22,399 bases of DNA, from positions 1 to 22,399 of the IMG/VR virus record IMGVR_UViG_3300031216_000073; one strand, given 5' to 3'. The notes beneath the pieces are model-generated. The model was not told where the DNA came from. It saw only the letters and a list, made by a program, of their open reading frames with translations, and ran no database searches. This DNA comes from a virus. This document shows positions 1 to 22,399 of this stretch, piece by piece (position 1 is the first letter of the stretch; every line of letters starts with the position of its first letter). The translations under genes were made by a program, and so were the position numbers.

Positions 1-3000
1 CCGAGACGAGTAGCTGCGCGCGTCGGCAAACTCGTATGATCCAAACGTCAGCGAAATTTCGGGGTCGATCGTGGTAGCCCTGAATCCCACCCAGGCCAGC
101 AGCTCGTCGGAAAGCTCATAGGTTCGACCATACGGCTCGACCTGACCTCGGATCGCTTTCATCGTTCGCTCGACGTTGTTGGCAACTCCGGGCTTCGTGA
201 CGTCAATGAAGTGGGCCAGCCCCTTGATCACGCGATCACTGAGAACGTCAGACTCGGACCAGACTTCTCGCCGGCCCTCGGACATTTGCTGGCCGGACAT
301 GGATTCAAGAAACGCTTGCAAGCCAATCTCGGGGGACAAGAACGGTGACAGCAAGCCCCATGCAGCTTCGCCGAACTTCTCCTCAATTCCCTCGTTGGAT
401 TCGTTCATCACCGCGTTCAGCGGTTGTTTGACGTAGGCATAGGGGTCCACATGGGACAAGTCCAAGTGAGTTGTTTTCCCGTCCTCGCCAATCCAAAGGA
501 ACAGAAGCTGGCTGTTTCTCTGCCAATTCGGGCCAAGCTGGCGAACGGCTTCGTCTGTCTCGTCGTCAATCCCCAGCATCCACCGCATTGACATAGTTGA
601 TGCATAGGTCCAGCCCGCAGCGATGCTCATGCCGGCCAAGCGCTGGGAACCAAGCCTGATCCGGCCCTCGGAAATATCCTTGGCAGCCAGCTTGCCCATA
701 TTGATGCTGGTCCGTCCGACCTCCCAAGGGAACGATACGAACGTCCCGATCGGCGCTCGGCGCAGTTTCTGAATGGCCTCAGGAACCATCGAGTATGTCG
801 GGTAGGTGTCGCGCACTCGGGTTGCGGCCTCGACCTCAAGCTCCGCATCGCTCATGCCGGCAAAGTCTGTGTCCCGGTATCGCTGTAGCATTGCAAGCTC
901 ATTTGCGAAACCGAGCACCTTCCAGAAATCATCACCCATCTGGTAGATTTTCTGGACAATTCGGAAGAATTTTCGGATGCCGTTTTTGGTCAGCCCTGAA
1001 GCCTTCTTGACGCCCCGAACCATCGTCGTCTGTTCCTCAATCATCAGATCGGTGATGTCGCTGAGAACAGCCTTGATCTCGCCAGAGCGCGCGCCGTCGC
1101 GGATCACGCCAAGCTCGGCCTGGCGCTTGGTGAACCTGTTCAGATCGGCCCTTGCTTCCCGAGCGCTGTCGTACCGGCCAATCCAAGCCCACACGCCAGA
1201 CATTCCCGGAAGCTCCGTCATGAGCTCGGAGAGTACGAGCTTGCCCGACGCCTTTAACCCAGTCGGATTGATATGGCCGTTTGCCACAGCGAACCAGCCA
1301 GCAGAGTGAAAGTTGCGCGAGGCCGTGGTCGGAGAAAGCACAGTCTTCCCGTATTTCACCATGCCGTTGACCGTCACCATGCCTTTAACCCAGCCCTCAA
1401 GCTGGCCGCTATCAACCGCCCGGCGCATCGCCTCAACAAAATCAGGTGTCGCCCATAGGCCAGCCATCGGAAGCATTGGGTCGCTGTCGGTGATCTGCTG
1501 GCTCATTTCTGCCGTCTGCTGAACGGATAAGAAGCCGTTGTCTAACCCGTCCTGGCGCACCTTCGACAAGAAGTAATGCTTAGCGTTGATCTGGGACATT
1601 TTCAGCATGGAGCGCGCGAAATTGATCTTGGGGTCTTGGTGCTCGCCCATCAGCGCGCGAATCTCTGGCGCAATATTTTTGCGGCGCTTCAGTATCCCCA
1701 GGTCTTTCCGGCCAACGTTCCCTGAAATCATGCTCACGAAATCAGAGGCATCCGTGTTCAGAATGCCATTGATCACGCCGTCAGCGTGGGAGCGCTTGGC
1801 CTCGTCGGACATTTCAGCCATATCCTCTCGCCGGCCAATCTGCTCAAGAAGGAAATCACGCGCCTCATTGACGACCGCCTCGGTTGGCTCCCAGTTGCCG
1901 CTCGGGTCAAATACCCGGTACGACCGATTCAGGTAGGTGCCCTTGTTACCCTCGATCGTCTGGACCAGGGCAATCTTCGCCGCAACCTTCCCGCCAACAC
2001 CTGGCATGACCTCGATCGCTGCGTATTCTTCCTCGGTCAGATCGCGAAAATCTCCATTCTCAAGCTGCGCCGCGCTAAGAATGTCCAATATCGCCTGCTG
2101 GTTGCTTTGCTCAAGCGTCTGGATCAGGTAGCGAATCTCGTCAACGATCATCGCCTGAGTCTCGGCCGACTTCGCATCAAGCATTGCCCGCATACCCTGG
2201 AGCTCGCGGAACAGATTGACCGACTCTTGAATCCACTTGATCGGTTCACCGCCCAGAAAAGCATTCATGTCCCGCAGCTTCTGGGATGGAATGTTCATGT
2301 AGAGCTTCGTTCCGGTCGCTTTCGCAGCTATGGCGCTGAACTCAGAAGTTAAAGACTCGACCTCGATCGCGTCAGATTCAAACTTACCCATCGCCTGAAT
2401 GTTGCGCTGGAATGCTTCATCGGTCAGCAGACCCTCTTTGACAAAATACCGCCTGGCCGCGCGCTTGAACTTCATGCGCCACCGCCGATCAGTGTTGGAA
2501 ACGTCCAGGTAGGGGTGCTTGGTCCGGTGCTCGACCAGATTGCCGTTGCTGTCGCGGCCGAAAACCACGCGGCCCTTGTTCCGCCCGGCATCAGGCGCAA
2601 CCACTTCCGGGTCCGCTCTGGATACCGGCTGACCGGCCTTGCCGTCAATGTCTACGGAAAAACCCGCATTCTGGTCTGACTTCTTGCGCGAGTACCGAAT
2701 ATCCGGGTTGCTGGGGTCAAACGTGCCTTGGTTTTCCGTGCGCTGATACATAGCAGGAGCATAAGACGGCCCCTCAGACTTACTCACGCCATCAATAACG
2801 CGCTTGACCGAACCACGCGCCATGTGAGCTACATCGGCAGACGTAAAGCCCTTGACGAGCGGCCTAGTCGCCTTGAACTTGCGGAGGAATGCCTTGATCG
2901 TCGCGACAATTTCGGAGAATGCGCCACCTTTAGCCCCGTTTTCGGCCATGTAGGCAATCGTCTCTTCCCAGAGAGCTCCGTCAGTCTTGATCGTGTCGTC

Positions 3001-6000
3001 TTTCAAAGCCCGCTGGTGAGCAGCATAAGCGTCACGCGATGACTTGCGAGCGCCTTCTTTTGCGCCCTCTTCGACCTGTTTCTTGATTCGGCTGATCAGA
3101 GAGCCGTACTTGTCGCCAAGCATGTCCTTGAGGCCGTGGTGAACGCCGACCTCATGCAAGATTAGGCCAAATTCGCTGCCGGGCTTGATATTGTTGGCCG
3201 CCATGTAGACCTTGCCGCCCATGTAGACCGCCGCAGCGTCGCTCGGGTGGTTTCCTGGCCAGTCTGCCGGGGATTCGGTCACGGTGATCAGGCCGGAGTC
3301 GATCAGGGCCTTCTGGGCGCGCGGGGTCAGGGAGCCGATGATTGCTCCAGAGGTGGTTCTACCTTGTTCTCGGCGGGAGTACATTTCCACGCCTTGGTCG
3401 GTTTCTCGGGTTTCAACGACCTGGAAAAAGTTGTCAAACGCAGCGCGAATGCCTGGCATTTCCCCTTCAGTCGGGTACGGGTAGCTCTCGGTCTTTCCGC
3501 CCATTGCCTCCCACGCTTGTTCGCTGACGACATTGGCAAGATAGTCGTTCGCTCCGTTCTGGTCGCGCAGCTTCTCGATCACGTAACCCTCAAACGCCCG
3601 GGCAGAAAGCTCAACCGACGTTGACCAGTAATCCTTAGACCGAACTGAGTCCAGCTCCTGCGACCGCTTAGGCATCCCGCTTTTGTAAATGGCCTGAATC
3701 ACGCCATTAAAAGCATCCCGGACTTCTGGGCGAATACCGCCAGCGTCTCGCTGTTCGCTCTCGGTCATGTAGTCGGTGCCGCCGTGGCGTTTACCGAACT
3801 CATTGTCCAGAGAATGCCAGAATTCGTGAGCAAGACTTCCTGCGCCCTGCATCTTAGTCAAGTTGATGACGACTTGACCCGGCTCGTAATGCGCCGCCGC
3901 AGACCTCTTCCCGCCCTTGCCGCGCGCGCCGAACGCCAAACCCAACTTGCCGTTCAGGGACAGGGCTTTGGCTGGCACGTCGATGACGCCAGCAAGGTCC
4001 ATCAGCGCGTCATAGGCGTTGTTAAGATCATCCTGGCGCTTTGACTGTTCGACCCAGTTGCCGAACTGGACGCCGCGGAAGCCGAATTCGTCAGCCCACA
4101 GCTCAGGAGTCGCATCCTGCCCATTCAGATGGTCAATTCCGACCCTGGGCGCATTGGTTTTGTCACGGTGCGGCGGGACCTCCCGCATCTTCTTGTATTC
4201 GCTCTCGAGTAAATCCCGATTGTCGTTCAGATACATTCGAGCGCGCATGACGTTATCAAACCCGGTCTTGACGCGCAGCAGGTTTTTCCCGATTTTTCTG
4301 CCGATAAACACGTCCTTTGTTCGACGATCACTGTAGATGTCAAACCTGATCGGACCCCGTTGTTTGCTGCCAAGCGCTGGATGCACTTCACGGAATTTTT
4401 CAATAGCCTCCTCGCGGGTGTTGCCAACAGCCAATTCGCGCGGGAAGTTTGAATACGCGCTGCCCTTGGTCTTTTGCTCGATCGACCACTTGACGACGTT
4501 CTTTTCTCCGCGATACAGCGAGTAAAGGTTCTTAGTGAACCAGATGCCCTTCAATGATTTCTCGTGACCAAACTCCTCGTACAGATCAGCGCGGCCGGTC
4601 AGGCGGTCCACATTCCTGACCGCGCCAGAAAGGCGCTGACGGAACTCGCTTGCCATGTCTGGGTTACGCAACAGCTCAACGGACACTGTGCGCAATTGCT
4701 CAAGGTTGTTGGCCCAAGATCGCATTCCGCGCGACCGGGGCTTGGCAGGAACCTCGTCGCGAAGCGCTCGAACCAATGCAACCACGGACGGATCAGAGCC
4801 TTCGTCAATGAGCTTCTGGTAATTTGGTTGAGGCCATGACTTCGACAGCGGGACTTTGGCCGCATCCTGCTCTGAAGCGGACTCCAGTGAATCAGCGTAA
4901 TCCTTGCGTGCACCGACGATCTTCTCGCCGAAATCGTCAATGGGCTGCGTAGGTTCGCTGCTTGTCGCTGCTGGCGCTTCAGGCTCAGGGGCCGGGGTTG
5001 CTTCGGCGGTCGGCTGGTCGATCGGTTCAATCTCTTTCTGCCCGATCAAGTCACCCTGAGCAGGACGCGGCCCAGCGAATAGGTCGCCGTCGCCTTCAAG
5101 CATGTCGGGGGATTGTTCGGTGCGGGTCTGCCGGTCGCGGTCGGAGTCGGCCTGAGCCTGAGCTGTGGAGTCTACCGGGCCTGCTAAATCTTGCGGGCCG
5201 GGATCGGCGTTCTCAGGCTCTCTGGAAGGATTATCTCGAACTTGCTCGACGGCTCGATCTGAGCCAGAAAGTCTCGGTGCGATCCTTTCCACTCCACCGG
5301 GCTCTTGCTCCCTGCCTGCGCGCTCGCCGGTTGCTTCGCGTCTGCGCTTTTCTGCCTTGAGTGCTTCATCTGCTGTATCCTTGTTAGCTCCCCGGCCAAA
5401 CGTAATGTTCAGCCCGCGCTTATTGATCACCGTACCATCTGATTTTGTCTCCCGCAATATGGCCTGCGAAAGTTCATTGTTCACTTCGGTCATGAGTGCA
5501 TCGACATTCTGGCCGTCTTCAGGCATAACATAGAAATCATCACCGCTAACATGGAACGACCCGCGATCTCCAAATTTGCCATGAATGGACCGAGCAACCG
5601 TAATAAGCAGGGCATCGCCAGCAGAAGGGCTCAGGTTGTCGTCAATCCATTTTAGGTTATCAGCATCAATTGACACTACTTCGCCCTGATGGCCTTTGAT
5701 GGCTCGCTCAAATGACCGGCGACCGTTGATGCCGGTAAGCTCGTTGCTCAGCAACGCAATCAACCGCTCTTCGCTGGTCATCTCATACGGGTCTTTAGCA
5801 GCAATCTCAGCCCTTTGTTCGGGCGTCGTTCTGCGCTCAGTCTGGTTTGTCGCCATAGGAGCATTAGGCTCAATGACGAACTCAGCTCGTTCAATCACCT
5901 GATCAGTCTCGTACTGGAGCGAATCAACCTGGTTATCAGTCAATTCTCCACGCTCCGCCCGCTGCTGGTCGCGTCTTGGGGCCAGTCGCTCCTGTAAGGT

Positions 6001-8268
6001 GTCAGGGCCAAATCCTTGCTCAAGATTTGCGCCCATGCGAACAGCCGAGATCGTTTCAAGCATCGCCTCAACAGTTTCAGCCTGTTGCTCGCCCAGCCTT
6101 TCTCCGTTTAGCGCCTTCTTCACAGCGTTTTGGATTCGCCCAACAGTCATGCCGTCAGCAATAATGCCTTGCGCCCACTGAGGATTCTCGCTTGGAACAC
6201 CAATGTAGTCGCCGGTATCCGATGGCCGGTCGCCTTGATTCGTGTTATAGCGACCCATAGCACCGCCGCCCTTTTTCAGATCAGACACCATAGACTCAAT
6301 CTGGTCTCGAAACTCTGGCCGACGAAGGCGCATATCGGACCACTGGCGAGTACCGCCGCTTTTTAGCTGGACGGTAGGCAGCGCGTCAATCTCGACGTAA
6401 GTGCTTGGCTGGTTCGTATCTGAGGCAACAGGCTCAGGCTGAACAGGTTCTTGAGTCGGCTGCGCTGTATCTGCCTGAGATTCAGGCCGCAACTGTCTCA
6501 GAACGTCACGAAGCCCCTGCCGGCCCTGCTCTACGCCATTGGCCTGCTCTGGCTGTGCGGTGGGCTCAGGGGTCGGCTCAATTGCATCAGCGGGCTCAGG
6601 AGCTGTCTGATTGGATGCGGGGGCAACTTCTGGCGTTGCAGTCTGTGGGGCGGGCTGGGCGCGGTTGCGGAAACCAGCAATACCGCCGATCGGTGCAAAC
6701 AGCGCGCCCATGCCAAAGGCTTCACCAGCGCCCTCAAACGTGCCCTGATCCGGGTTGACCGCCTGGGTGGCTTGGTTTGCCGCCACCTGCGTATACCCTT
6801 CTTCCAGGGCTTCTGAAAGACCTTCACCCACAAAGCCCGTTGCAGCGCCACGAAGAACACTGCCGCCGCCACGTCCCGACCCAGCAAGCGCTCGATCAAT
6901 TGCCAAAGCGCCAGGGATCAAATTCAGGCCCAGAGAAACGGCGGCCGTCTTGAGTCCAGCCAGTCGGGCCAGCTCAACAGAGACTGTTTCCTTGGCCTCC
7001 TCCTCGTCCACGCCTTCAGCAATCAGGCGCTTGTAGGTCTCATTCGCGGCCCACAATTCGCCGTCCTGCTGCATGAGCTGCTCAAACGCTGTGCTAGCAG
7101 AGTCAGCGCCCCCTAAAATAGCACCAGCTCCAGCGGCTCCAGCGGTTGCGGCTCCAGCGGTCGTTTTTGCCCCGGCGCCCATTACGCGCGCCAGAATGCC
7201 AGCGCCGCGACCAGCGACACCAGTAATCATAAGGTTCGGTGTCTGTTCAATGAAGAACGAAAGCAGTAATCGGGGACGTTTTACAGTCTCGGAGGCCACG
7301 GCCTTGAACGCGCCCCACTGGCCTTCAGCGGCAGTGGCTGACTCGACAGCCGCGTCTACATCGGCCTGCTGTCCGACGATCGTGTCAGACTCGATGGCGC
7401 TGGCGAAGCCCCTCACGCCTTCAGCGGCTTTGGTCAACACATTGTCCATGCCACCAGGCAGTCCGGTCAGCCCGTACAGGGTGCCAGCAGTTCCAACAGG
7501 CAGTGCGACGGCTTTGGCTAACACCGCAGCAATCTGATCAATCCAGTCCGTTGCGACGTTCTTGCGGTCTTCTCCGCCTACCCGGTCGCGCCATGACCGA
7601 TCAGGGTCAGACAGCAGTGCGCCCAATGTTGAATTATCTCGCCCAGGCGTCATGTCGGGCGCTCTCCAGTTATCGCGCCGGTTTTCCCATGTCTCGCCGC
7701 GGCCCTCGGAAGTCTGAACCCCCTCGGTGAGCTTCTGACCTAGCGATGTTGCGTTAGGGTCTGGCGACTGCATTGGAATAGCAGTGCCTTCGCTATCTGA
7801 CCAGCCAATCGGGTTGTTGTTGGTTTTCTTTGCTGTCGAGCCTGGACCGGGCTCGGAAACATTTTCTGAGCCAATTCCATAACTATCAATCCGGCGCTTT
7901 GCGCGCTCGTTGGCTGCTGACAGTTGCTCGGGCTCATATAGAGACTGAGGGACCATACCCTCACCAGCACCTCGGATGGTGTCACCAGCACGAGATGCGA
8001 AGTTGTCCATGTTGCCAGTCAATAGCCCATAGATATTCCCAGAAGTTCCGGCAAGATTACCTACGCCACGAACGCCATAGGAAGGCAATGTGTTGACTGC
8101 CCGGTTTGCGCCCTCGTCATACCCGTCACCAAAGAACTCCTGCTGAAGGGCTAAGTCTTTTTCTCTCTGGGTTTGGGGCAGGTCATAAACATCATCCTCG
8201 GTTACGTCAAGGCTGCTGAAGTCATATTTTGATGACGTACCAAGATGACTAAACTTGTACTTGCTCAC
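1..8268 (-). CDS. Giant polyvalent virion protein, at least 2756 residues (partial at 3' end)
   Basis: One frame is open from the GTG at 8268 to the first base of the window, so the stop is outside. It is probably a packaged protein ejected into the host. Domains in order: a polar N terminus; Gly/Ala-rich hydrophobic segments at about 250-275, 330-400, 440-495 and 517-535; a Pro/Glu/Gln linker (about 535-630); a degenerate GGDEF-like domain (about 835-980; LTGINGRRSFE at 844, IDADN at 867, SGDDF at 908-912); and a second acidic Pro linker (about 985-1110). Next is a region ending in a zincin-like domain with HEFWH at 1481-1485 and ELSARAFEGY near 1553. The preceding ALSLNGKLGLAFGARG resembles the LPD5/LPD1 domains of polyvalent proteins. 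A second zincin-like motif HEVGVHH (1705-1711) has EETIAYMAE near 1768. TFDPSNPDIRYS lies near 1850, then a long helical region (YLNRSYRVFD near 2110), and a C-terminal part resembling the LPD38 type (from about 2400). Pfam-style names are from memory. Confidence 0.92.
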   Translation of the reverse strand, partial: MSKYKFSHLGTSSKYDFSSLDVTEDDVYDLPQTQREKDLALQQEFFGDGYDEGANRAVNTLPSYGVRGVGNLAGTSGNIYGLLTGNMDNFASRAGDTIRGAGEGMVPQSLYEPEQLSAANERAKRRIDSYGIGSENVSEPGPGSTAKKTNNNPIGWSDSEGTAIPMQSPDPNATSLGQKLTEGVQTSEGRGETWENRRDNWRAPDMTPGRDNSTLGALLSDPDRSWRDRVGGEDRKNVATDWIDQIAAVLAKAVALPVGTAGTLYGLTGLPGGMDNVLTKAAEGVRGFASAIESDTIVGQQADVDAAVESATAAEGQWGAFKAVASETVKRPRLLLSFFIEQTPNLMITGVAGRGAGILARVMGAGAKTTAGAATAGAAGAGAILGGADSASTAFEQLMQQDGELWAANETYKRLIAEGVDEEEAKETVSVELARLAGLKTAAVSLGLNLIPGALAIDRALAGSGRGGGSVLRGAATGFVGEGLSEALEEGYTQVAANQATQAVNPDQGTFEGAGEAFGMGALFAPIGGIAGFRNRAQPAPQTATPEVAPASNQTAPEPADAIEPTPEPTAQPEQANGVEQGRQGLRDVLRQLRPESQADTAQPTQEPVQPEPVASDTNQPSTYVEIDALPTVQLKSGGTRQWSDMRLRRPEFRDQIESMVSDLKKGGGAMGRYNTNQGDRPSDTGDYIGVPSENPQWAQGIIADGMTVGRIQNAVKKALNGERLGEQQAETVEAMLETISAVRMGANLEQGFGPDTLQERLAPRRDQQRAERGELTDNQVDSLQYETDQVIERAEFVIEPNAPMATNQTERRTTPEQRAEIAAKDPYEMTSEERLIALLSNELTGINGRRSFERAIKGHQGEVVSIDADNLKWIDDNLSPSAGDALLITVARSIHGKFGDRGSFHVSGDDFYVMPEDGQNVDALMTEVNNELSQAILRETKSDGTVINKRGLNITFGRGANKDTADEALKAEKRRREATGERAGREQEPGGVERIAPRLSGSDRAVEQVRDNPSREPENADPGPQDLAGPVDSTAQAQADSDRDRQTRTEQSPDMLEGDGDLFAGPRPAQGDLIGQKEIEPIDQPTAEATPAPEPEAPAATSSEPTQPIDDFGEKIVGARKDYADSLESASEQDAAKVPLSKSWPQPNYQKLIDEGSDPSVVALVRALRDEVPAKPRSRGMRSWANNLEQLRTVSVELLRNPDMASEFRQRLSGAVRNVDRLTGRADLYEEFGHEKSLKGIWFTKNLYSLYRGEKNVVKWSIEQKTKGSAYSNFPRELAVGNTREEAIEKFREVHPALGSKQRGPIRFDIYSDRRTKDVFIGRKIGKNLLRVKTGFDNVMRARMYLNDNRDLLESEYKKMREVPPHRDKTNAPRVGIDHLNGQDATPELWADEFGFRGVQFGNWVEQSKRQDDLNNAYDALMDLAGVIDVPAKALSLNGKLGLAFGARGKGGKRSAAAHYEPGQVVINLTKMQGAGSLAHEFWHSLDNEFGKRHGGTDYMTESEQRDAGGIRPEVRDAFNGVIQAIYKSGMPKRSQELDSVRSKDYWSTSVELSARAFEGYVIEKLRDQNGANDYLANVVSEQAWEAMGGKTESYPYPTEGEMPGIRAAFDNFFQVVETRETDQGVEMYSRREQGRTTSGAIIGSLTPRAQKALIDSGLITVTESPADWPGNHPSDAAAVYMGGKVYMAANNIKPGSEFGLILHEVGVHHGLKDMLGDKYGSLISRIKKQVEEGAKEGARKSSRDAYAAHQRALKDDTIKTDGALWEETIAYMAENGAKGGAFSEIVATIKAFLRKFKATRPLVKGFTSADVAHMARGSVKRVIDGVSKSEGPSYAPAMYQRTENQGTFDPSNPDIRYSRKKSDQNAGFSVDIDGKAGQPVSRADPEVVAPDAGRNKGRVVFGRDSNGNLVEHRTKHPYLDVSNTDRRWRMKFKRAARRYFVKEGLLTDEAFQRNIQAMGKFESDAIEVESLTSEFSAIAAKATGTKLYMNIPSQKLRDMNAFLGGEPIKWIQESVNLFRELQGMRAMLDAKSAETQAMIVDEIRYLIQTLEQSNQQAILDILSAAQLENGDFRDLTEEEYAAIEVMPGVGGKVAAKIALVQTIEGNKGTYLNRSYRVFDPSGNWEPTEAVVNEARDFLLEQIGRREDMAEMSDEAKRSHADGVINGILNTDASDFVSMISGNVGRKDLGILKRRKNIAPEIRALMGEHQDPKINFARSMLKMSQINAKHYFLSKVRQDGLDNGFLSVQQTAEMSQQITDSDPMLPMAGLWATPDFVEAMRRAVDSGQLEGWVKGMVTVNGMVKYGKTVLSPTTASRNFHSAGWFAVANGHINPTGLKASGKLVLSELMTELPGMSGVWAWIGRYDSAREARADLNRFTKRQAELGVIRDGARSGEIKAVLSDITDLMIEEQTTMVRGVKKASGLTKNGIRKFFRIVQKIYQMGDDFWKVLGFANELAMLQRYRDTDFAGMSDAELEVEAATRVRDTYPTYSMVPEAIQKLRRAPIGTFVSFPWEVGRTSINMGKLAAKDISEGRIRLGSQRLAGMSIAAGWTYASTMSMRWMLGIDDETDEAVRQLGPNWQRNSQLLFLWIGEDGKTTHLDLSHVDPYAYVKQPLNAVMNESNEGIEEKFGEAAWGLLSPFLSPEIGLQAFLESMSGQQMSEGRREVWSESDVLSDRVIKGLAHFIDVTKPGVANNVERTMKAIRGQVEPYGRTYELSDELLAWVGFRATTIDPEISLTFGSYEFADARSYSSR

Positions 8269-14800: not shown

Positions 14801-15516
14801 TTAAATATCCCCTCTGTTCCGTGAGCGCCCGATACAAGCATGTCGGTAAAGGTGTTGCCATAAGTGAACAGGGTTGAGCCCTCAGAGGAACCGGCCTGCT
14901 GAACTTCGTTCTTGTATATTACTGTGCGCCCATATCTCTCCTTAGGCTCGTTTGGAATAATAGGGAAGTTGACCGGGCCGATGAAAGAATCAACGGAAGG
15001 GAAAAACACTTGCCCAGTCCTAACCGTTAGGTCAACGTCATCTATCCCATCCCCGGCCACGTTAATAAACTCCGGCGACTCTATGACGTAACCTTTTACC
15101 GGGCCTCTCCAGCTAACTACATTGATAAATTTGGTGCTTGCTCCGGTCCCGTCAGTTGTTGCGTCAGCGTTTTTCGGCAGCCTGAAATAGACCTCATCGC
15201 CAACAGCAAAGTTGGTGAATGATGAGGGGGGCCATATCCCGCTATTTAGACCGAACCCTTCGTAGAACGGAATCCCGCCGTCAGGAGTAGTCCCCCAACC
15301 ACCGCCGCGCTCCCCATCGGCAAACTGCTTGCGGAAGGTGTAAGTCGAAAGGGACGTTGGGATTTCCCTGCCGTCATACCTTGCAAACCCGTCAATTTTG
15401 CGATACCCATCAGAAATAGCAACCTCGAAATTCTCACACTCAGCAAGAGTGCCGGGATTGGAGGCTATCTTTGATGTTGATTGGTCAAGACCACCGACAA
15501 GCTGAATCGCGCTCAT
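11887..15516 (-). CDS. Very large tail/virion protein, 1209 residues
   Basis: This is probably a tail hub or tubular-B/stabilisation-type protein. The first 50 residues carry a motif typical of podovirus tail-stabilisation proteins: GGLDQSTSKIASNPGTLAEC, then NFEVAISDGYRKIDGF and RYDG. The last 40 residues (ARGRDISIRLNHE from about 1173) have the strand signature that often ends the same family. A segment near 885-915 (GMLRAQGDALFVFTESQIIAYQG) resembles a beta-propeller-like blade. Between roughly 150 and 800 the chain is Ser/Gly/Thr/Asp-rich and beta-predicted, with no strong motif; this looks like inserted domains that make the protein unusually long. No enzymatic site is apparent. The ATG overlaps the adaptor stop (ATGA) and the stop overlaps the next ATG in the same way. 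I saw no separate tail fibre gene, so receptor-binding parts may be inside this protein or outside the window. Confidence 0.72.
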   Translation of the reverse strand: MSAIQLVGGLDQSTSKIASNPGTLAECENFEVAISDGYRKIDGFARYDGREIPTSLSTYTFRKQFADGERGGGWGTTPDGGIPFYEGFGLNSGIWPPSSFTNFAVGDEVYFRLPKNADATTDGTGASTKFINVVSWRGPVKGYVIESPEFINVAGDGIDDVDLTVRTGQVFFPSVDSFIGPVNFPIIPNEPKERYGRTVIYKNEVQQAGSSEGSTLFTYGNTFTDMLVSGAHGTEGIFNAHMLPSSGLSWLAYNNAASLNQQAYRQTVQQFPGGYPLGMTWFRGENYGVARTYRYNMEDASYDSTIAALYVPNQWAYYSQDHQLVTTGPLGNRDPRSLIPPEDGVGVYQTCRIVDLGESIELLMPEPDPVATSLEQMPIGRDINLLTELKFINSEIFPSFGDTLDSSGGYECIVRAVIEVAGEEYLGICLVETVSGSVAQGDVLTDSSADNVFEVYSVFGGSAVDEPLCTIEARVSSDDAVIVKSGSGEGFIPTNMGYESEIETATTEPVSVLDQSDGAGNITDTGFRTLSNVYIGGSGNITWTQATVARLEVDGGTYAQINHGSGTSIPSGRPLILEGFGFELDDVDVLTGVEVEITAQARTDAATVPPSPSIDIYRVGLVDPDNPTDSGIDWITVNKEISTTKGTITVGSLSEMFGSKLTSSDASKINFGVAIQTRRRRSAISFSDWGRIFLVRVKAHYRQKSATVYFYDGVSADYGSAEVLDSYLKSGAWDGTGDGYLSFRSMTLTSPIPAGAEIRTGADGAGSLVANALSQPAPNRLPGPLKLAEESSQYQFITSNFFASENLEAVYGASGAGNAFTFNDSYFIWIRTGLDDDKAIPRHIGRLKDRLVLGYANGNIDMSVPAEPTDYSGSDALTLGVGDKIVGMLRAQGDALFVFTESQIIAYQGADNDTLQPSIISANSGAIEYTVQDMGIPVFCDFRGVSTISVTDKYGDFQRGRLSELVHPWLNPRLQGVNKGLDADQSVAGSIVVRNKSQYRVIFKDGYVLTMTFRRDTPEFTIQRYSVKKDGEYLDVDGDSLSPTPASWVYSEEPVLFSCASWGIDERGSDRIFLGAQNYPHMIELDRGNTFDGLPISSYLVTNPFNKGDTEMNARFNVMHIHSSIRGYAELSHQVGTDYSPPAGREESFALGDNTQDYYSGERPAFSKTRTNARGRDISIRLNHESTTDQPFTIQALGFADVSPRRKER

Positions 15517-16187
15517 TGATTGCCCCGAACTTGCACGTTTGGTGTTTGTTCTTGAGACATTTGCATGAACAAGTCAGCGTACTCAATCTCAAATCGCTGG
15601 TACTGGGTGCTGGCTTCGTCATAACCGGCATACTTACGCCCAGCATTGTGAACAATAATCTCATGGAACTCTTCGGGCAGGATCGGAATATCAGCATTTT
15701 CAGCAAGTCGCTGCGGCTGCCTCAGGTAATTGAACGCGATTGACTTGGCCTGAGTAGGTGTCGGGATAAGCAGCATATTGTCGCTTGGGTCGATAACCGC
15801 ATATTGTGGCTGACCCGCCTGCAAATCCAGATACTCTTTTCGACCAGCCCAATCAAGGTAGTCAAACACGAACACCGGGGTATCCCCATCGTGAATAATC
15901 CAGCGTTGCTTGTGAGGGCTGGTATAGGGCATGAGGCGACGAAAGCCGGGGTCAGTAATCAGCGCCCGTAAGTCGTAGCCCTCCTGATCTGGCGTAGTGT
16001 TGAAAGCGCCTTGCTCTGTCATAAACCGCCAAGCGGTCTGAAGTTGGATGCTGACCCAAGATTTATTAATCCACCGCACGCAATCACGAATATGCGCAGT
16101 AGGCGGGTCAGTGACATCGGTCAATATTGCCGAATCGTCCGTGCCAATCTCGTCAATCAGCTCTTGGGTCAGCTCCAGGTAGTTCAC
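15513..16187 (-). CDS. Head-tail adaptor (connector) candidate, 224 residues
   Basis: This is probably the adaptor ring that joins portal and tail, comparable to gp4/gp11-type or tail-tubular-A-type proteins of podoviruses. The evidence is position and a recognisable layout. There is an N-terminal helix (MNYLELTQELIDEIG) and an HIRDCVRWINKSWVSIQ helix at about 32-48 followed by a tryptophan-containing strand. A central beta region contains YDLRALI and later YAVIDPSDNMLLIPTPT. The C-terminal helical pair begins ILPEEFHEIIVHNAGRKYAGY at about 170, a pattern common in these adaptors. It starts with GTG, overlapping the previous stop as GTGA, and GAGGAG lies about eight bases upstream. Its stop overlaps the next ATG. 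Alternative: another head-completion protein of similar fold. Confidence 0.65.
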   Translation of the reverse strand: MNYLELTQELIDEIGTDDSAILTDVTDPPTAHIRDCVRWINKSWVSIQLQTAWRFMTEQGAFNTTPDQEGYDLRALITDPGFRRLMPYTSPHKQRWIIHDGDTPVFVFDYLDWAGRKEYLDLQAGQPQYAVIDPSDNMLLIPTPTQAKSIAFNYLRQPQRLAENADIPILPEEFHEIIVHNAGRKYAGYDEASTQYQRFEIEYADLFMQMSQEQTPNVQVRGNQ

Positions 16188-16948
16188 GCAGCAAGCTCCT
16201 CCATCATGTCAACGTCATATCCCAAGGAGCGCAACACGATCTCGCGAATCTCTTCGGCCTCAGCGCCTCGCGGATAGCGCAGCTTGAGGCGTCGAGCAAC
16301 GACAGTCATTTTGCGCTTGCTGTAACCCCGGAACAAGTCCTGATCTTCGGCAATAATACGAAATTGCTCTTTCTGGTCAAGCGGCAAATGGGCCGTTGCA
16401 GGATCATCGCCCAAGTCAGTGAAGTTCCATCGGTTGACCATGCGGGTATCCCATGTGCTGCGGGACTTCTTGCCCTCACGCACATAATCATTCTCAATCA
16501 CTTCAACGTGATTCGAGTTTTTGATGATCTGGTAAATGGGCCACGGCACTGAGCTAGGCGTATTCCACGGCACGAAAACGGTCATGTTGTGCCAGCGGAA
16601 AGGATGAGGACGCAGCCCCTTGTACTCGTCAGGCCGCACGATACTGACAATGCGACGACGACCGGGCCACTTGCCGCAGTTGGATGTTAGGTTAAGACCG
16701 AGCAGGAACTCAAGTTGATCCTTGCTCAATCGCCCTGCAGCCTCTGGTTCTGGCAGCGAGATTTCTGGCGGTGCATCTTCAACGCGCTCACCAAGTGATT
16801 CCAGCATTCGAGCACGTAGCTTCTCGTCTCCGATGTTCGGGTGGTAATCAATACCAAGAACACTCGCAAACGCTTCCAAATCAGCACGGTCAGAATTAAC
16901 GAACCGATCCTGCCGGGCTTGATCCAGGCGGCTTTGATCTACAGACAT
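16184..16948 (-). CDS. Unknown virion-module protein, 254 residues
   Basis: I do not recognise the family. The protein sits between the capsid gene and the adaptor candidate, where podoviruses often encode head-completion or minor capsid proteins. It has an acidic N-terminal helical part (QSRLDQARQDRF, then ADLEAFASVLGIDYHP). The centre is rich in Trp, Pro and Arg (WPGRRRIVSIV, HPFRWHNMTVFVPW), and the C-terminal region is basic then acidic (KRKMTVVARRLKLRYPRG followed by an EEIREIVLRSLGY helix). The middle looks like a small beta domain. No membrane segment is evident. I take the ATG at 16948 because of its well-spaced GGAG; an ATG at 16960 would add four residues. It ends in a GTGA overlap with the next gene. 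The abutting terminator suggests lower expression than capsid. Confidence 0.75.
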   Translation of the reverse strand: MSVDQSRLDQARQDRFVNSDRADLEAFASVLGIDYHPNIGDEKLRARMLESLGERVEDAPPEISLPEPEAAGRLSKDQLEFLLGLNLTSNCGKWPGRRRIVSIVRPDEYKGLRPHPFRWHNMTVFVPWNTPSSVPWPIYQIIKNSNHVEVIENDYVREGKKSRSTWDTRMVNRWNFTDLGDDPATAHLPLDQKEQFRIIAEDQDLFRGYSKRKMTVVARRLKLRYPRGAEAEEIREIVLRSLGYDVDMMEELAA

Positions 16949-16954
16949 TAGTTT

Positions 16955-16958
16955 CTCC
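16955..16958 (-). promoter_or_regulatory. Ribosome binding site deciding the start of the 254-residue protein
   Basis: GGAG lies six bases before the ATG at 16948-16946. A TTG at 16978 lies inside the terminator stem and an ATG at 16960 overlaps this GGAG. The spacing therefore favours 16948 as the start. Confidence 0.6.
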
Positions 16959-16963
16959 ATGTT

Positions 16964-16990
16964 AAAAGCCCCCGGCAAGACGCCGGGAGC
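16964..16990 (-). terminator. Intrinsic terminator after the capsid gene
   Basis: On the minus strand a nine-base stem (GCTCCCGGC with GCCGGGGGC, one G-T pair) encloses a five-base loop GTCTT and is followed by TTTT. This is a textbook rho-independent terminator, 21 bases after the capsid stop. It ends only a few bases before the ribosome binding site of the next gene, leaving no room for a promoter between them. Downstream genes must therefore be reached by read-through, antitermination, or a promoter inside another gene. Its probable role is to set the capsid transcript level above that of the tail genes. Confidence 0.85.
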
Positions 16991-17011
16991 CTGTTTTGCC
17001 TTGCGGCGGGT

Positions 17012-18085
17012 TTACAGCTGGGTCAGATCAGACGTAGCACCAACTTCCAAACGGACAAGCCAGTTGTCGTTCAGAATAACGTGCAGGTCATACCAGTGAG
17101 CCACGAAGAGGTCATTCAGTCCAGCCGGATCAGCCTTGTCGGCACCGTCCAGAATCTTGACATCAACGCCGCCCCATCCTTTCGAGCCAGAGCCCTTCAG
17201 GTCAGCACAGCCGAGAGCGTTCTTCGCCGTGATCAGGATCGGATAGACGTCAACTTTGTCTGTTCCAGATACGTCAGTCGCCTTCAGGTTAAGGCCAGTC
17301 GCCGTTGCACCACCGCCGGCAAAGGCAGTCAGCTCAGGAGACATCAGGAAGCGCAAATGCTCAATGCTGCCGCGCTCGAATTTACTGATCGGGTCAGAAC
17401 CACCGTACTCTGATACCTTGGTAAACCCGTCAATACGACGAACATCCGGCAAGAGATTGGTGTGACAGAAGGCGATATAGGCTGGCTCAAGGCCGACCGT
17501 ACCGTTCTCCATGCCGCCATTGTCCACTTCGGTAAAGGTGATGCCCTTAGCGTCGTCCAGAAGACGAATCGCTTCCTGAAGGATACCGAGAGACACCGGG
17601 CCATTTACTGAAGTCCGGGCACTGTGTGACGGATCGTTGTAGACCACTGACGTGCCGGCGAGCCACTTTGACCAGGCAACAGCGGTACGAATCCGCATAA
17701 CCTTGTCTTTGAGCTGATCGACGTTCGCCTTGCGGTGATCGTCTTCGCTCAAGTCGCGGGCGCGGCTCGTAACAGCGTAGATTTCAACACGCTCCTCAAA
17801 CGTGCCGGTGACGTCCTCGTAGCTGATTGACTGCCAATCAGGGTTGACGCCCTCAGTGATCTCAGTGGTTGATACCGCGTCATTGACGACCCGACGCCAA
17901 GAAACAGTCTCGTTCTTGTACATCGGAACCGGCTTCATGTCGGCTGCAGGAATGAAAATATCATGCGGACGAGCCCGTTCAAGGAACTCTTTTACCGCAT
18001 AAACGTTTGTCCGGTTGCCCGGTCCAGTGGCAGTGCCACCTGTGTAGTTGTTTGAACCGTCATAATGACGACCTAAATCAGCCAT
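17012..18085 (-). CDS. Major capsid protein, N4-gp56-like, 357 residues
   Basis: This is the HK97-fold shell protein of the head. The sequence resembles the N4 gp56 family of major capsid proteins. The N terminus contains NVYAVKEFLERARPHDIF (about 28-45). It is followed by a KPVPMYKNETVSWRR strand, the conserved ITEGVNPDWQSISYEDV segment (about 75-92), and a region with SRARDLSEDDH and a long helix (about 110-140), matching the N-arm, E-loop and spine-helix order of the fold. The length fits the family. The position immediately after a scaffold-like gene supports it. The ATG is preceded by GGAG with a nine-base spacer, and an AGAGGAG tract makes this a strong site, as expected for the most abundant virion protein. 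A strong intrinsic terminator begins 21 bases after the stop. Confidence 0.9.
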   Translation of the reverse strand: MADLGRHYDGSNNYTGGTATGPGNRTNVYAVKEFLERARPHDIFIPAADMKPVPMYKNETVSWRRVVNDAVSTTEITEGVNPDWQSISYEDVTGTFEERVEIYAVTSRARDLSEDDHRKANVDQLKDKVMRIRTAVAWSKWLAGTSVVYNDPSHSARTSVNGPVSLGILQEAIRLLDDAKGITFTEVDNGGMENGTVGLEPAYIAFCHTNLLPDVRRIDGFTKVSEYGGSDPISKFERGSIEHLRFLMSPELTAFAGGGATATGLNLKATDVSGTDKVDVYPILITAKNALGCADLKGSGSKGWGGVDVKILDGADKADPAGLNDLFVAHWYDLHVILNDNWLVRLEVGATSDLTQL

Positions 18086-18100
18086 GATTTAATACTCCTC

Positions 18101-19147
18101 TCAGAATAGAGAAGCGAATTGCTCTTCTGGCGTCATCGGCTTACCTCTGCCAGAGCTGCCGGATACACCGGAGCCTTGACTTGGTGGCGATGGCGGTGGA
18201 GGCTCGCGTCTCTGAGTTGGTTTTTGGGGATCAGCGGAACTAGCCTGTTGCTGCGCCTGTCCAGCCTGAAACATCTGTGATGCCTCGTCAGGAAAATACT
18301 GCTCCATATCTTGGCAAAACTTCTGCAATACATACGCGCTCTCTTCCGCAAACGGAGACCCCATAGCTTCTGCGATGTCCGGGTATTGCGTTGGTTGAGA
18401 TTGCACTGCGTTGCGCCAATGCGAGAAGTGCGGCGTCTGAGTAATGGCCCTAGCGTTCGGAAACATTTGCTCAAGTCGCTGGAACTCTCGCGAAGTGACT
18501 TTTTGATGAAACTGGCTTAAACCGGACGCAGTTTTTTGGGATTGCGCCTGCTGGTTCTGAATGGCCCTAGCCTGAGAGGCAAAAACTTTCTTTACCTGTG
18601 CAGCCTCTTCGGGCAAGTCTTCAGATATTGCTTTCCATCCATCATTATCCTCCAAGTCTTTCAGAGTCGGAGCTTCACCTTGCTCGATTTTGAGGAGTCG
18701 CTTCTGCAAGTCCTCATTTTGCTGCTGCACAGGGGCAAGGCGGCCATATACAGCTTGGTAACTTTGGTGCAAACGGCTGGAATAATCAGCCATTGTCTGT
18801 ATTTCTTTCTTGGCCTGATCGCGGTCTTCGTCGCTCAAGCCCTTGAACCACGCGGGCTCGTTGTCAATTTTGGGCGGCTTGTCTGCCTTGCCTGGGTCAG
18901 ACGCCGACTTTTGCTTTACAGTGGGCTCGGGATCGTCACTTGAGCGCTCCGGCTCACCCTTTTGCGGCTCTTCGTCGCTATCGGGCTCTTGGGGCTCTGA
19001 CGGACCCGGATCTTCCGGCTCACCTTCAGGGGCTTCTGGCTCCTGCTCTTCAGTTAATCCCGCGCCGGTCTTCGGCGCCTCATCTTCATCGTAGAGTGTG
19101 GCGAAAGCCTGCTCATCTGTCAGGGTCTCGTTTAGTTCATTGCTCAT
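18101..19147 (-). CDS. Scaffolding-like head assembly protein, 348 residues
   Basis: This is probably the internal scaffold around which capsid protein assembles before DNA packaging. The call rests on its place directly before the major capsid gene and on composition. Residues about 20-95 are an acidic Glu/Pro/Asp/Ser-rich disordered region. Residues about 100-230 are helical and coiled-coil-like with many Gln, Lys and Glu. The tail from about 300 is Gln/Pro/Ser/Gly-rich. No catalytic motif is visible, so it does not look like a fused protease. A similar ten-residue motif occurs at both ends: TDEQAFATLY (10-19) and TPEEQFASLF (339-348, the very C terminus). The ATG has AAGGA eight bases upstream and lies inside the end of the preceding small gene. 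The stop is 15 bases before the capsid start. Confidence 0.8.
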   Translation of the reverse strand: MSNELNETLTDEQAFATLYDEDEAPKTGAGLTEEQEPEAPEGEPEDPGPSEPQEPDSDEEPQKGEPERSSDDPEPTVKQKSASDPGKADKPPKIDNEPAWFKGLSDEDRDQAKKEIQTMADYSSRLHQSYQAVYGRLAPVQQQNEDLQKRLLKIEQGEAPTLKDLEDNDGWKAISEDLPEEAAQVKKVFASQARAIQNQQAQSQKTASGLSQFHQKVTSREFQRLEQMFPNARAITQTPHFSHWRNAVQSQPTQYPDIAEAMGSPFAEESAYVLQKFCQDMEQYFPDEASQMFQAGQAQQQASSADPQKPTQRREPPPPSPPSQGSGVSGSSGRGKPMTPEEQFASLF

Positions 19148-19343
19148 CTAATAGTTCCTTTGGCAGTCCTAGAAGTTCTCGAAGTACCGTTGCTTGCGAT
19201 TGCCACTTAATGGCTGTCTCTCGATCCGCTGCCGTTTCGAGGTATCCAGGCTCATCAAGTGACCCGATAATTTCATTTAGCTGGGTGTTGGCCCAATTCT
19301 CGACCGCGATCCAGCTTGAGTCTTTGATGTTAATCTCGTCCAT
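19137..19343 (-). CDS. Small protein of 68 residues between portal and scaffold
   Basis: I do not recognise this protein. It is acidic, predicted mostly helical, and has no membrane segment or cysteine. Features that can be seen are a central region with Trp and Ala-Asn (SSWIAVENWANTQLNEIIG) and a C-terminal helix ending in LGLPKELLDEQ. Its ATG shares one base with the portal stop and its own end overlaps the scaffold start by 11 bases, so it is embedded in the coupled head operon. Small genes in this place in other podoviruses are often head-assembly accessories. That is context only; no function should be assigned. Confidence 0.65.
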   Translation of the reverse strand: MDEINIKDSSWIAVENWANTQLNEIIGSLDEPGYLETAADRETAIKWQSQATVLRELLGLPKELLDEQ

Positions 19344-21577
19344 CAGATTGAATCTCGACCGAGACGAAGGTTCTCCTTGCGGCTCATCTCCCGGTTTGCA
19401 TCAATCTGGTTCTTGACCGCCGCGTTCTCTGCCCGTCTCGCTGAATCAGTCTCGCGCTGAGCGGCCTGTATCTCAGCCTTATAGGCGTCAACCTCAATCC
19501 GCATCTCAGCAATGCCCAAGTCTTTCTGAATCTGGGCCAGCGACACGTTTTCTCGGGATGCCGCGTCAGCCAGCTTGCCATTCATATCCATCTCAGCAAT
19601 CATCAGCTTGACCTGCAGCTCACGGTCGCGAAGTCGTCGGTCTGCCTCTTCACGCTCAAACTCACGACCGGCGGACTGATCGCTTGCGGCCGCCTGGGCC
19701 TCCGCTTCAGCTTTGGCCGCTTCAGCCATTAGCTTACGCAACTCAGCCTCTTGAGCCTGCTGCTGCATCTGAGCTGCCGGATTTGCCGCGCTCTGCTGTA
19801 TCTCTTCGTCAGACAGCCAGAGATCGTCTGTAGGGAAGTCAAGCGTCCCAAGTACCCGCTTGTACATCTCAACACCCTTAATGGCTTGCCGTAGCTCTGG
19901 GTCGCCGTTGATAAGCTGCATCGCAAGCATCCCGTGCTGGCCCTGCATGTCCTTGACCATCAGGTAGGACGAGCCGCGAGCCACTACCTGCATCTCAATC
20001 TTTGCGTCATCGTCTTCACCAAACTCCATCTCCCACCAGTAATAGCGAGTGAGCATCGGAATAGTGATGTCATCGTCCCAGCCGTGAGCAGCTCGACGCT
20101 GCACGATATTCTGGGCGTTCATGACCATGGCCTGCCCGGAGGCGGTCATTTGCGTTTGAGCGGCCTCCCCTTGGGCAAGCATAGGCAACTGAGTATTTTC
20201 GTTCGCGTTCTGCTTGGCCCGGTCGTAGATTGGCAGCAATTGACCGACCACTGAGGGAATGTTCTCGTGGACAATTGCATCGGACGATTTGTTTACGTCC
20301 TTGCTCTTGATGATCCAAGTCTTCGGGCCGCGAATCGTGTAATCGCCGTTTGCCGGCTCAATCTTGCCCTGCTTAACCGTAGTCTGCGGGCCGCTGCACA
20401 ACTCTGCGTTGTACTGAATGGCCTCCCACAGAATGTCAACCGACTCCTGCTCTTCTCGAACCAGGCGAGGAACGCCCCAAGCATTCAGTATGTCAGCATC
20501 GTCACGCTTGTAAGAGAAAACATAATAAGGGACGCGCTCATCACCAAGGATTGAGTTAATTTCCACTTTGATGACGTGGCTGCCGCTGAACCATACCTCA
20601 CCCCAGTACATATCGAGCGAGCCATCTAGTTCACCGAAACCTATCTTTTGCAGTAGCTCGGCGTCAATCGCTCCCCGGTACTCCCAGACAATGTAGTCCT
20701 GAAAGTTTGATTGCCCGCTCTCAAGCAGGTTTTGGCGCTCTCGAATCAGCGACGACTCTTGACCTGTGTAAGAGGGCTTGCCCTTGTTCTCTAACATTAC
20801 GCGGCCAATCGCCTCTTCACTGAATCCGGGCCAGTTCCGCATCTCGTACAATTTTGACTTGGGCATATGGTGGAGCTGGTACACGCCCTCACAGGAATCC
20901 ATTGACCGGCACGGCAATGGGAAAAATGTCCACGGGTCTACGCGCTCTGATGCTGGCCGGTTCTCTCGCACGATCTCTGAGCGCACCGAATAGCCCTCAA
21001 TAATCACCTCGCCGGTCATTGGGTCCACGGCGGGCTGCCCGGTCATCGGGTCGATTGCGGGGACTTCGCTGCGCCTAACAACGCGCTTCACGCCACTCTT
21101 TGAGAATGGCCCCTTGATAATTCCGATTCCAAGACGGCAGGCGTCCTCAATGGCTTGGCGCCCGTGTTTAGGGTAGTTGCAGGCGTTGAGATTATCCTCG
21201 ACTTTGCGCTCAATGCGGTCTACAGCTTTCTCGGCCTGCGCTGCGTCAATCGGGTTGCCGTCGATATCCAGAGGCTCCGGGCTCGCCGTTAGCGCGAAAT
21301 TCTTGTCGTTAGTCGGAAACAGCATATCTCCAATACGACTCGCGGCAATGTCAGTCTTGGACCGAGTGATATTGTCAATTGGCGGGCGATCAGAATCCGA
21401 GTCCTCATCGTTGCGCTTTGACCGGATGCCCCAATACTGGCGCTCGTCCTCAATCCACCGAGACTCTGCCGCCCGCTTGTGATCGACAGCCTTTTCTTTC
21501 TTGATGGTGAGTTTTTGGGCGAGCGCAGCTAGAGCAGACTCTACAGCCCCGCGATCTTCGCCTTGAGTGTCAATCAC
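19343..21577 (-). CDS. Portal protein, 744 residues, with long C-terminal helical region
   Basis: The portal forms the dodecameric ring at the packaging vertex, binds terminase during packaging and later holds the tail. Position between terminase and scaffold/capsid genes, and a length close to that of large podovirus portals (N4-type about 760 residues), identify it. The N-terminal part has the usual portal features, including RPPIDNITRSKTDIAASRI near residues 65-85 and FPTNDKNFAL soon after. A short internal duplication, DPMTGQPAVDPMTGE, lies at roughly 175-195. From about residue 604 to the end the chain is Ala/Glu/Arg/Gln-rich and almost certainly alpha-helical or coiled coil, as expected for a portal barrel or crown extension. 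The start is GTG, chosen because GGAGG lies six bases upstream and because it makes a GTGA overlap with terminase. The stop shares one base (TGATG) with the next gene. Confidence 0.9.
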   Translation of the reverse strand: MIDTQGEDRGAVESALAALAQKLTIKKEKAVDHKRAAESRWIEDERQYWGIRSKRNDEDSDSDRPPIDNITRSKTDIAASRIGDMLFPTNDKNFALTASPEPLDIDGNPIDAAQAEKAVDRIERKVEDNLNACNYPKHGRQAIEDACRLGIGIIKGPFSKSGVKRVVRRSEVPAIDPMTGQPAVDPMTGEVIIEGYSVRSEIVRENRPASERVDPWTFFPLPCRSMDSCEGVYQLHHMPKSKLYEMRNWPGFSEEAIGRVMLENKGKPSYTGQESSLIRERQNLLESGQSNFQDYIVWEYRGAIDAELLQKIGFGELDGSLDMYWGEVWFSGSHVIKVEINSILGDERVPYYVFSYKRDDADILNAWGVPRLVREEQESVDILWEAIQYNAELCSGPQTTVKQGKIEPANGDYTIRGPKTWIIKSKDVNKSSDAIVHENIPSVVGQLLPIYDRAKQNANENTQLPMLAQGEAAQTQMTASGQAMVMNAQNIVQRRAAHGWDDDITIPMLTRYYWWEMEFGEDDDAKIEMQVVARGSSYLMVKDMQGQHGMLAMQLINGDPELRQAIKGVEMYKRVLGTLDFPTDDLWLSDEEIQQSAANPAAQMQQQAQEAELRKLMAEAAKAEAEAQAAASDQSAGREFEREEADRRLRDRELQVKLMIAEMDMNGKLADAASRENVSLAQIQKDLGIAEMRIEVDAYKAEIQAAQRETDSARRAENAAVKNQIDANREMSRKENLRLGRDSI

Positions 21578-22399
21578 AAACGTCCTCCAAATCTCTTGTC
21601 GTGGATCAGCGGTTGCGGGATAGTGGCCTCTCTCTTGCTCATGGCCATATCAATCATGCGCACCAGATAAATCAAGCAGTCCATCAAGTGGTCGTTCTCC
21701 TTGACAATCTTTTGATCCTTGTAACGAAACTGCCGAAGCTCAAGAATAGACTTCACCAGCGTTCTATAAAACCTGAGTCGCCCACTCAGCAGTCGCTCTA
21801 GCACGTTATCAATAGCCGCGCTCTTGCTGTGCTTGTCTGCCAGCGCAATATCAACACCATAATCGCCGTATGCCTGGACGAGGTTCTTGCCGTCCTCCTG
21901 ATTGATAGCAGCCGCATCTCCGACTATCGGTATCCAGCTACCACGGCAGGTAATAGCTGCGGCATGTGAAGCGATCGGCTGTTCGCCGTTCTTGTACTCG
22001 GAATAAACGTAAATCGTGTCCGTGTCGCGATCCACAGCACCCCAGAGCGCAGCGGTGTTGTGATAACCGCCGTCAAAACCAACAAGCCTGGGCCAGTGAT
22101 CCGGTATTCTCTCCAGTGGATCGCAAAGAATAGTGTCTAAATCCACAGGATAAACTGCCCCTTCGCCAATTGCCGGTATGCCAGTGCTTCGCGTTGCCCG
22201 CATGTGAGCTGGCGTGTTCTTCAATGTTGCTGACTTATATGCCTCTGTGACGTGCGGCGCATCGTCCCAGGTTATCGAGATTAGCTCACGCTCGGGAGAG
22301 AGTGTCTCCATCTCAATCGTCAGCGGTGTAATTCCGTCCATTGGCGTGTACGTCAAGAGCGATATTGGATGCTCGCCACCGCGCAGCCTAGCCATTGCC
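21574..22399 (-). CDS. Terminase large subunit, C-terminal part (partial)
   Basis: This is the motor-nuclease subunit that packages phage DNA into the prohead through the portal. Only the C-terminal part, mostly the RuvC/RNase H-like nuclease domain, lies in the window. The frame stays open past the last base, so the ATPase domain and the true start are outside; the ATG at 22395 is internal. Visible signatures are TWDDAPH near the start of the segment (the ATPase-to-nuclease junction seen in many TerL proteins), GFDGGYHNTAALW with the first nuclease Asp at about 22072, and NDHLMDCLIYLV near 21690 carrying the last acidic residue. The gene ends in TGA at 21576-21574, which overlaps the GTG start of the portal gene by three bases out of frame, a GTGA junction. 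Being next to the portal supports the call. I saw no small terminase gene in the window. Confidence 0.93.
   Translation of the reverse strand, partial: AMARLRGGEHPISLLTYTPMDGITPLTIEMETLSPERELISITWDDAPHVTEAYKSATLKNTPAHMRATRSTGIPAIGEGAVYPVDLDTILCDPLERIPDHWPRLVGFDGGYHNTAALWGAVDRDTDTIYVYSEYKNGEQPIASHAAAITCRGSWIPIVGDAAAINQEDGKNLVQAYGDYGVDIALADKHSKSAAIDNVLERLLSGRLRFYRTLVKSILELRQFRYKDQKIVKENDHLMDCLIYLVRMIDMAMSKREATIPQPLIHDKRFGGRL

Follow-up and report, generated by a model that had tools for sequence, protein, structure and literature searches.

A GGDEF domain inside a giant polyvalent-type phage protein belongs to a phage clade of putative cyclases and carries two private active-site substitutions

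The window analysed in this study is the whole 22.4-kb stretch (22,399 nucleotides) of a virus record (IMG/VR IMGVR_UViG_3300031216_000073). Its left 8.3 kb is occupied by one minus-strand open reading frame, encoding a giant protein of at least 2756 aa (Table 1). Upstream of this gene, and on the same strand, are located genes of an SU10-type adaptor, a major head protein, a head-tail adaptor and a terminase, which places the giant gene within a structural cluster. As is typical for polyvalent proteins, several unrelated domains of this type (LPD5, LPD1, GGDEF and a C-terminus similar to virion structural proteins) are combined in one phage protein. The gene order, the PHROG similarities and the behaviour of the Dar proteins of phage P1, used as an analogue with respect to packaging and injection (PMC12810830), suggest that the virion probably carries the giant protein and delivers it together with the DNA. 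Two zincin-like motifs (HEFWH of LPD1, and HEVGVH) are present after the GGDEF module, at 2746-3654 on the minus strand, and the segments containing them are possible self-processing peptidases. The major head protein of the window has a 100% identical counterpart on a 12.4-kb viral contig (L158); this contig gave no match to the giant-protein segment searched (window residues 1-1923).

Table 1. Features of the window and active-site positions of the GGDEF domain of its giant protein.
Feature	Position	Strand	Remarks
Giant polyvalent-type protein	1..8268	-	at least 2756 aa; ORF open at the 3' end, runs off the contig
C-terminal region, phrog_22602 (virion structural protein)	64..1971	-	PHROG E 5e-70
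Segment with HEVGVH, zincin-like peptidase motif	2746..3357	-	50% identity to the G013 orthologue; peptidase assignment by motif alone
LPD1 domain, HEFWH within	3406..3654	-	Pfam E 2.4e-19; motif read from the sequence
LPD5, large polyvalent protein-associated domain 5	4090..4491	-	Pfam E 2.5e-32
GGDEF (SGDDF) domain, residues 827-996 of the giant protein	5281..5790	-	Pfam, AlphaFold2 and PDB matches
R983 in the phage-type tail K-x6-G-x-R-A	5320..5322	-	95% conserved; probable counterpart of PleD R446
K974, phosphate-binding Lys position (PleD K442)	5347..5349	-	97% conserved; role from PMC7288161
SGDDF loop, S908-F912	5533..5547	-	fourth residue D911; Glu there in nearly all relatives
D885, guanine-specificity Asp (PleD D344)	5614..5616	-	role from PMC7288161, PMC9140294
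D876 at the guanine-binding Asn position (PleD N335)	5641..5643	-	Asn in all other relatives compared; role from PMC7288161
D868, metal-binding Asp (PleD D327 position)	5665..5667	-	invariant in the clade; role from PMC7288161
N-terminal region similar to phrog_2206, virion RNA polymerase (residues 322-842; profile positions 212-650)	5743..7305	-	PHROG E 9e-13
Structural cluster upstream of the giant gene: SU10 adaptor, major head protein, head-tail adaptor, terminase	15513..22395	-	

The original prediction had placed a GGDEF domain at 5290-5770, in agreement within about 20 bases with the boundaries computed here, although the domain extends further, to residue ~996, and takes in the phosphate-binding K974 and R983. 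The isolated domain scored 26.3 bits with PF00990 (cut-off 23.8; E 7e-6), while the score obtained with the full 2756-aa protein (19.7 bits) was below the cut-off; GGDEF is the sole Pfam match in that part of the giant protein. A profile of phage relatives scored the window domain at 184 bits, which is not an independent value, since the domain itself is among the profile rows. An AlphaFold2 model, built with 31 relatives, reached a pLDDT of 96.7 and a pTM of 0.89, and solved GGDEF domains matched this model at Z 13-17, the top PDB match being DgcB (6tts_A; Z 16.9, rmsd 2.4 Å, 143 residues). The PDB entries that matched best were without exception GGDEF domains, from diguanylate cyclases or related proteins. 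Among viral models, the closest belongs to a protein of at least 1143 residues (TM 0.91, 41% identity), and the second is a solo GGDEF protein, that of Bordetella phage CN1. Residues 827-996 are thus confirmed as a genuine GGDEF domain, with the proposed GGDEF/palm fold supported by the profile, by the model with its PDB matches and by about 90 relatives; a chance match or an artefact is ruled out by the score, the fold and the family conservation.

Relatives in viral contigs were identified by a scan with an alignment of relatives, for which the inclusion of YuA-type proteins was needed. The scan confirmed 109 relative-encoding stretches, with 80 loci kept; together with other loci, these yielded 101 distinct domain pieces, including some split halves of one domain. 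One match to a query consisting of the window protein only (L002) proved to be false (a chance DDFYVMPE match), and plasmid matches were set aside, as they look like ordinary bacterial GGDEF proteins, many of them annotated as EAL or cyclase proteins.

The signature of the phage-specific clade to which the window domain belongs comprises, in this order, the metal-binding segment D-x-D-S-L-K-W-[IV]-N-D, the loop H-x-S-G-D-E-F and the tail K-x6-G-x-R-A-x-R-G-E-x-P. The loop is H-x-S-G-D-E-F in 58 of the 77 sequences and R-x-G-G-D-E-F in 13. The residues covary in this region (L009-L127): H two places before the loop pairs with S (58) and R with G (13), with few mixed cases. A tail composed of K-x6-G-x-R and a basic, Pro-ending stretch was detected in 71 of 75 phage domains versus 3 of 29 bacterial domains, and the I-site pattern in 1/75 versus 22/29, respectively, the bacterial set being small and derived from four genomes only. 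The window domain carries the H-x-SGD loop and the K-x6-G-x-R tail and has no I-site, so that the earlier observation of a missing RxxD inhibitory site before the loop is borne out. In a quick tree with modest support, which reflects clustering and not a rooted history, the phage and bacterial domains were placed on opposite sides of a branch (SH-aLRT 93), with the exception of three bacterial-like rows from the search. When ~85,000 bacterial and archaeal genomes were screened with one strict motif, only 5 matches were obtained, all of them in MAG contigs, and recent acquisition from a host is therefore unsupported; one of these matches (L048) is an ordinary bacterial GGDEF domain in the tree.

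Comparison of up to 92 distinct sequences revealed that the metal Asp is invariant and that the guanine-binding Asn is present in all of them except the window. The specificity Asp is kept in 81, the phosphate-binding Lys in 87 and Arg in 84, SGDE or GGDE is retained in the loop, and its third residue is Asp or Glu in all clade members but one. With the catalytic set kept and the I-site nearly absent, the clade as a whole looks like a group of working, unregulated cyclases. Conservation of the metal Asp and of the loop among homologues, proposed earlier as a check of the domain, was thus observed, the loop being SGDEF or GGDEF in nearly all cases. The Ser replacing the first Gly, originally regarded as a departure, is the norm of the clade (71 of 92 sequences) and no sign of decay.

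For the window copy, the original description of D868, of the AGDALL segment and of the S908-G-D-D-F loop was confirmed. This copy differs from its relatives at 2 of the 18 positions at which at least 90% of the other sequences agree, namely by N876D (the replacement of the guanine-binding Asn of the canonical motif, which had escaped the original prediction) and by an E-to-D change at 911. Both positions are invariant in the other 76 sequences, and the remaining 16 of the 18 are kept. The term "degenerate" therefore applies to this copy at two conserved positions only, and not to its relatives, in which the catalytic residues are kept. A search of viral contigs for near-identical copies of the two altered codons gave none, and a polymorphism or an assembly error at these sites is conceivable.

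In PleD, D327 and E370 bind the metal, N335 and D344 the guanine, and K442 and R446 the phosphates, and N335 has been reported to be essential (PMC7288161). Of the features expected of a diguanylate cyclase, the window domain has the metal Asp (D868), an acidic third loop residue (D910) and the specificity Asp (D885), but lacks the guanine-binding Asn (Asp876) and the Glu at the fourth place of the loop (Asp911). Judging from the sequence, both substitutions are mild and the remainder of the active site is intact; nevertheless, they probably weaken or alter catalysis. As N335 is reported to be essential in PleD-type enzymes and two invariant residues are altered here, the cyclase activity of the window copy is doubtful. 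A fourth-position mutant, AGDAF, has served as the active-site-dead control for VCA0965 (PMC3974145). With regard to the first position of the loop, the SGDEF cyclase ECA3270 is active, while VCA0965 lost its activity when Ser was present at this site (PMC3974145), and thus a first-loop Ser has to be judged protein by protein.

Members of the clade occur in two settings, i.e. as small solo proteins and as modules inside giant proteins. The solo members include small proteins of Yuavirus and Vojvodinavirus and the Bordetella phage proteins; two of them, YuA gp44 and MP1412 gp43, adjoin a KlcA-type antirestriction gene. The domain is present in no fewer than 66 distinct giant proteins of phages, at positions that range from residue 41 to residue 2292. 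The partner Pfam domains vary across 20 of the giants (InPase, LPD22, LPD38, RadC, ddrB-ParB, ART-PolyVal, PBECR5, acetyltransferase, methyltransferase), and DarB-like antirestriction is also found among the companions. When ten segments of the window giant protein were compared with the 66 giants, the non-GGDEF segments recurred in at most 6 of them, the GGDEF segment being present in 66/66 by selection. A search with the C-terminus of the giant protein gave no matches.

A related phage, G013, whose major head protein is 68% identical to that of the window, encodes an orthologous giant protein of 3149 aa (L174). This protein aligns with window residues 648-784 and 1026-1081, on either side of the GGDEF domain, while about 110 residues replace the 241 residues separating these flanks in the window. 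A maximum-sensitivity scan of the G013 giant protein for GGDEF gave no signal (best domain score -2.3 bits). Since the flanks align without the domain, it must have been gained or lost in one of the lineages, the data being compatible with either direction. These results point to heavy domain shuffling on a backbone common to both giants; the empty-site orthologue, together with the occurrence of the other segments in at most 6 of 66 giants, indicates that the GGDEF domain is a shuffled module. That one module turns up so widely in giants with little else in common suggests that it is worth keeping. The G013 protein also lacks similarity to LPD5 and LPD1, and its other segments include HEIQH and HEVGVH peptidase-like motifs.

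GGDEF domains were listed in injected polyvalent proteins by Iyer et al. 2017, who proposed interference with cyclic-nucleotide signalling (PMC5512222). Virion delivery of such a domain, put forward originally as a new way to touch c-di-GMP, is therefore not a new idea, and YuA gp44 had already been annotated ('contains diguanylate-cyclase domain; putative role in host cell conversion'). In the class of Iyer et al., as in the window, GGDEF is part of a giant protein that combines it with LPD-type and peptidase-type domains and is a proposed injected effector, but the example given there is a prophage-derived protein of Acetonema. The window domain thus adds a member to an already reported kind; this study contributes the SGDEF signature and tail motif of the clade, the lack of the I-site, the empty-site orthologue and the two substitutions private to this copy.

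YuA gp44, MP1412 gp43 and gp39 of Bordetella phage CN2 are assigned to the clade of the window domain on the basis of their signature, their tail motif and their place in the tree. Unlike the window protein, they are small separate proteins of a non-structural gene cluster (with antirestriction neighbours in Yuavirus), and their loops are SGDEF or AGDEF, with the canonical Asn and Glu. PleD, DgcB and WspR (PF00990) share with the window domain the fold, the metal Asp, the specificity Asp and the phosphate-binding residues, although the identity is only about 17-25%; in contrast to these proteins, the phage type has no I-site, a longer tail spacing and no sensory partner domain, and its acidic pair is preceded by H-x-S rather than R-x-G. 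DarB and DdrB of P1 resemble the window protein as giant proteins of the virion-delivered type, and DarB-like and ddrB-ParB domains occur among its relatives. However, packaging and injection of the P1 proteins are known by experiment, and these proteins are not known to carry a GGDEF domain. No biochemical study of any clade member was found in the open-licence literature. In another report, lysogens of a Bordetella phage of the same group show more biofilm, which its authors linked to its GGDEF gene (PMC8471281).

The reading that we favour, and to which we give roughly even chances, is that the window encodes a GGDEF cyclase module in a probably packaged giant protein, and that the clade makes a cyclic dinucleotide early in infection. 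The giant polyvalent protein would be packaged in the virion and enter the cell with the DNA, the module might be released by the peptidase-like domains of the giant, and unregulated synthesis by clade members would take place within minutes of the start of infection. A point against this reading is that GGDEF enzymes are active as dimers, while the model obtained here is of a single domain copy. The product would be c-di-GMP in most members, given that the guanine-specificity Asp is kept, and it may change the state of the host or interfere with nucleotide-based defence. If the clade is active, a c-di-GMP-type synthase without a product brake would be delivered with the genome, ahead of phage transcription, and such virion cargo would be linked both to the control of host lifestyle and to cyclic-nucleotide immunity.

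In the case of the window copy, we consider an active enzyme only slightly more likely than a remnant that binds nucleotides. The domain may be a non-catalytic binder (a GTP or cyclic-dinucleotide sensor or sponge, or a switch of the neighbouring domains), with only its relatives acting as enzymes. This possibility deserves serious attention, even if we would not place it first: both departures affect invariant positions of the active site while the fold and the phosphate-binding residues are intact, and degenerate GGDEF domains that bind GTP or c-di-GMP are known (PMC7288161, PMC3974145). On the other hand, the changes from N to D and from E to D are conservative, the motif definition in PMC12657218 permits Asp or Glu at the fourth place of the loop, and the domain has no I-site, on which many c-di-GMP receptors rely. 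Far less credible is the assumption that the module is a decaying passenger, acquired by recombination and functionless in the window phage. It is absent from the G013 orthologue, and hence dispensable there, and is shuffled among unrelated giants; nevertheless, the domain is in frame, has a high-confidence fold and retains 16/18 conserved positions, which is unlike neutral decay.

It is also conceivable, but improbable, that some clade members make a product other than c-di-GMP, e.g. cGAMP, through altered base selection. The specificity Asp is replaced by Thr in L035, L103 and L107 and by Asn in seven others, the window alters a second base-contacting residue (N to D), and Hypr GGDEF enzymes with Ser or Thr at the specificity site accept both ATP and GTP (PMC9140294). 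The Asp is, however, kept in 81 members, including the window, and we consider Thr and Asn at this site as a lead towards other products and not as evidence. Returning to the favoured reading of an early-acting cyclase module, its broadest form would be that the virions of many phages contain a cyclic-dinucleotide synthase insensitive to feedback, which acts ahead of phage gene expression and floods or confuses the nucleotide-based signalling or immunity of the host, and that the branches with changed base contacts (Thr, or Asp in the window) make other or mixed nucleotides; this extended proposal is rather speculative.

Analysis of base composition revealed that the G+C content dips to 0.48 at window positions 5400-5699, within the GGDEF domain, compared with 0.53-0.63 in the flanks, which is a weak hint in keeping with an imported module.
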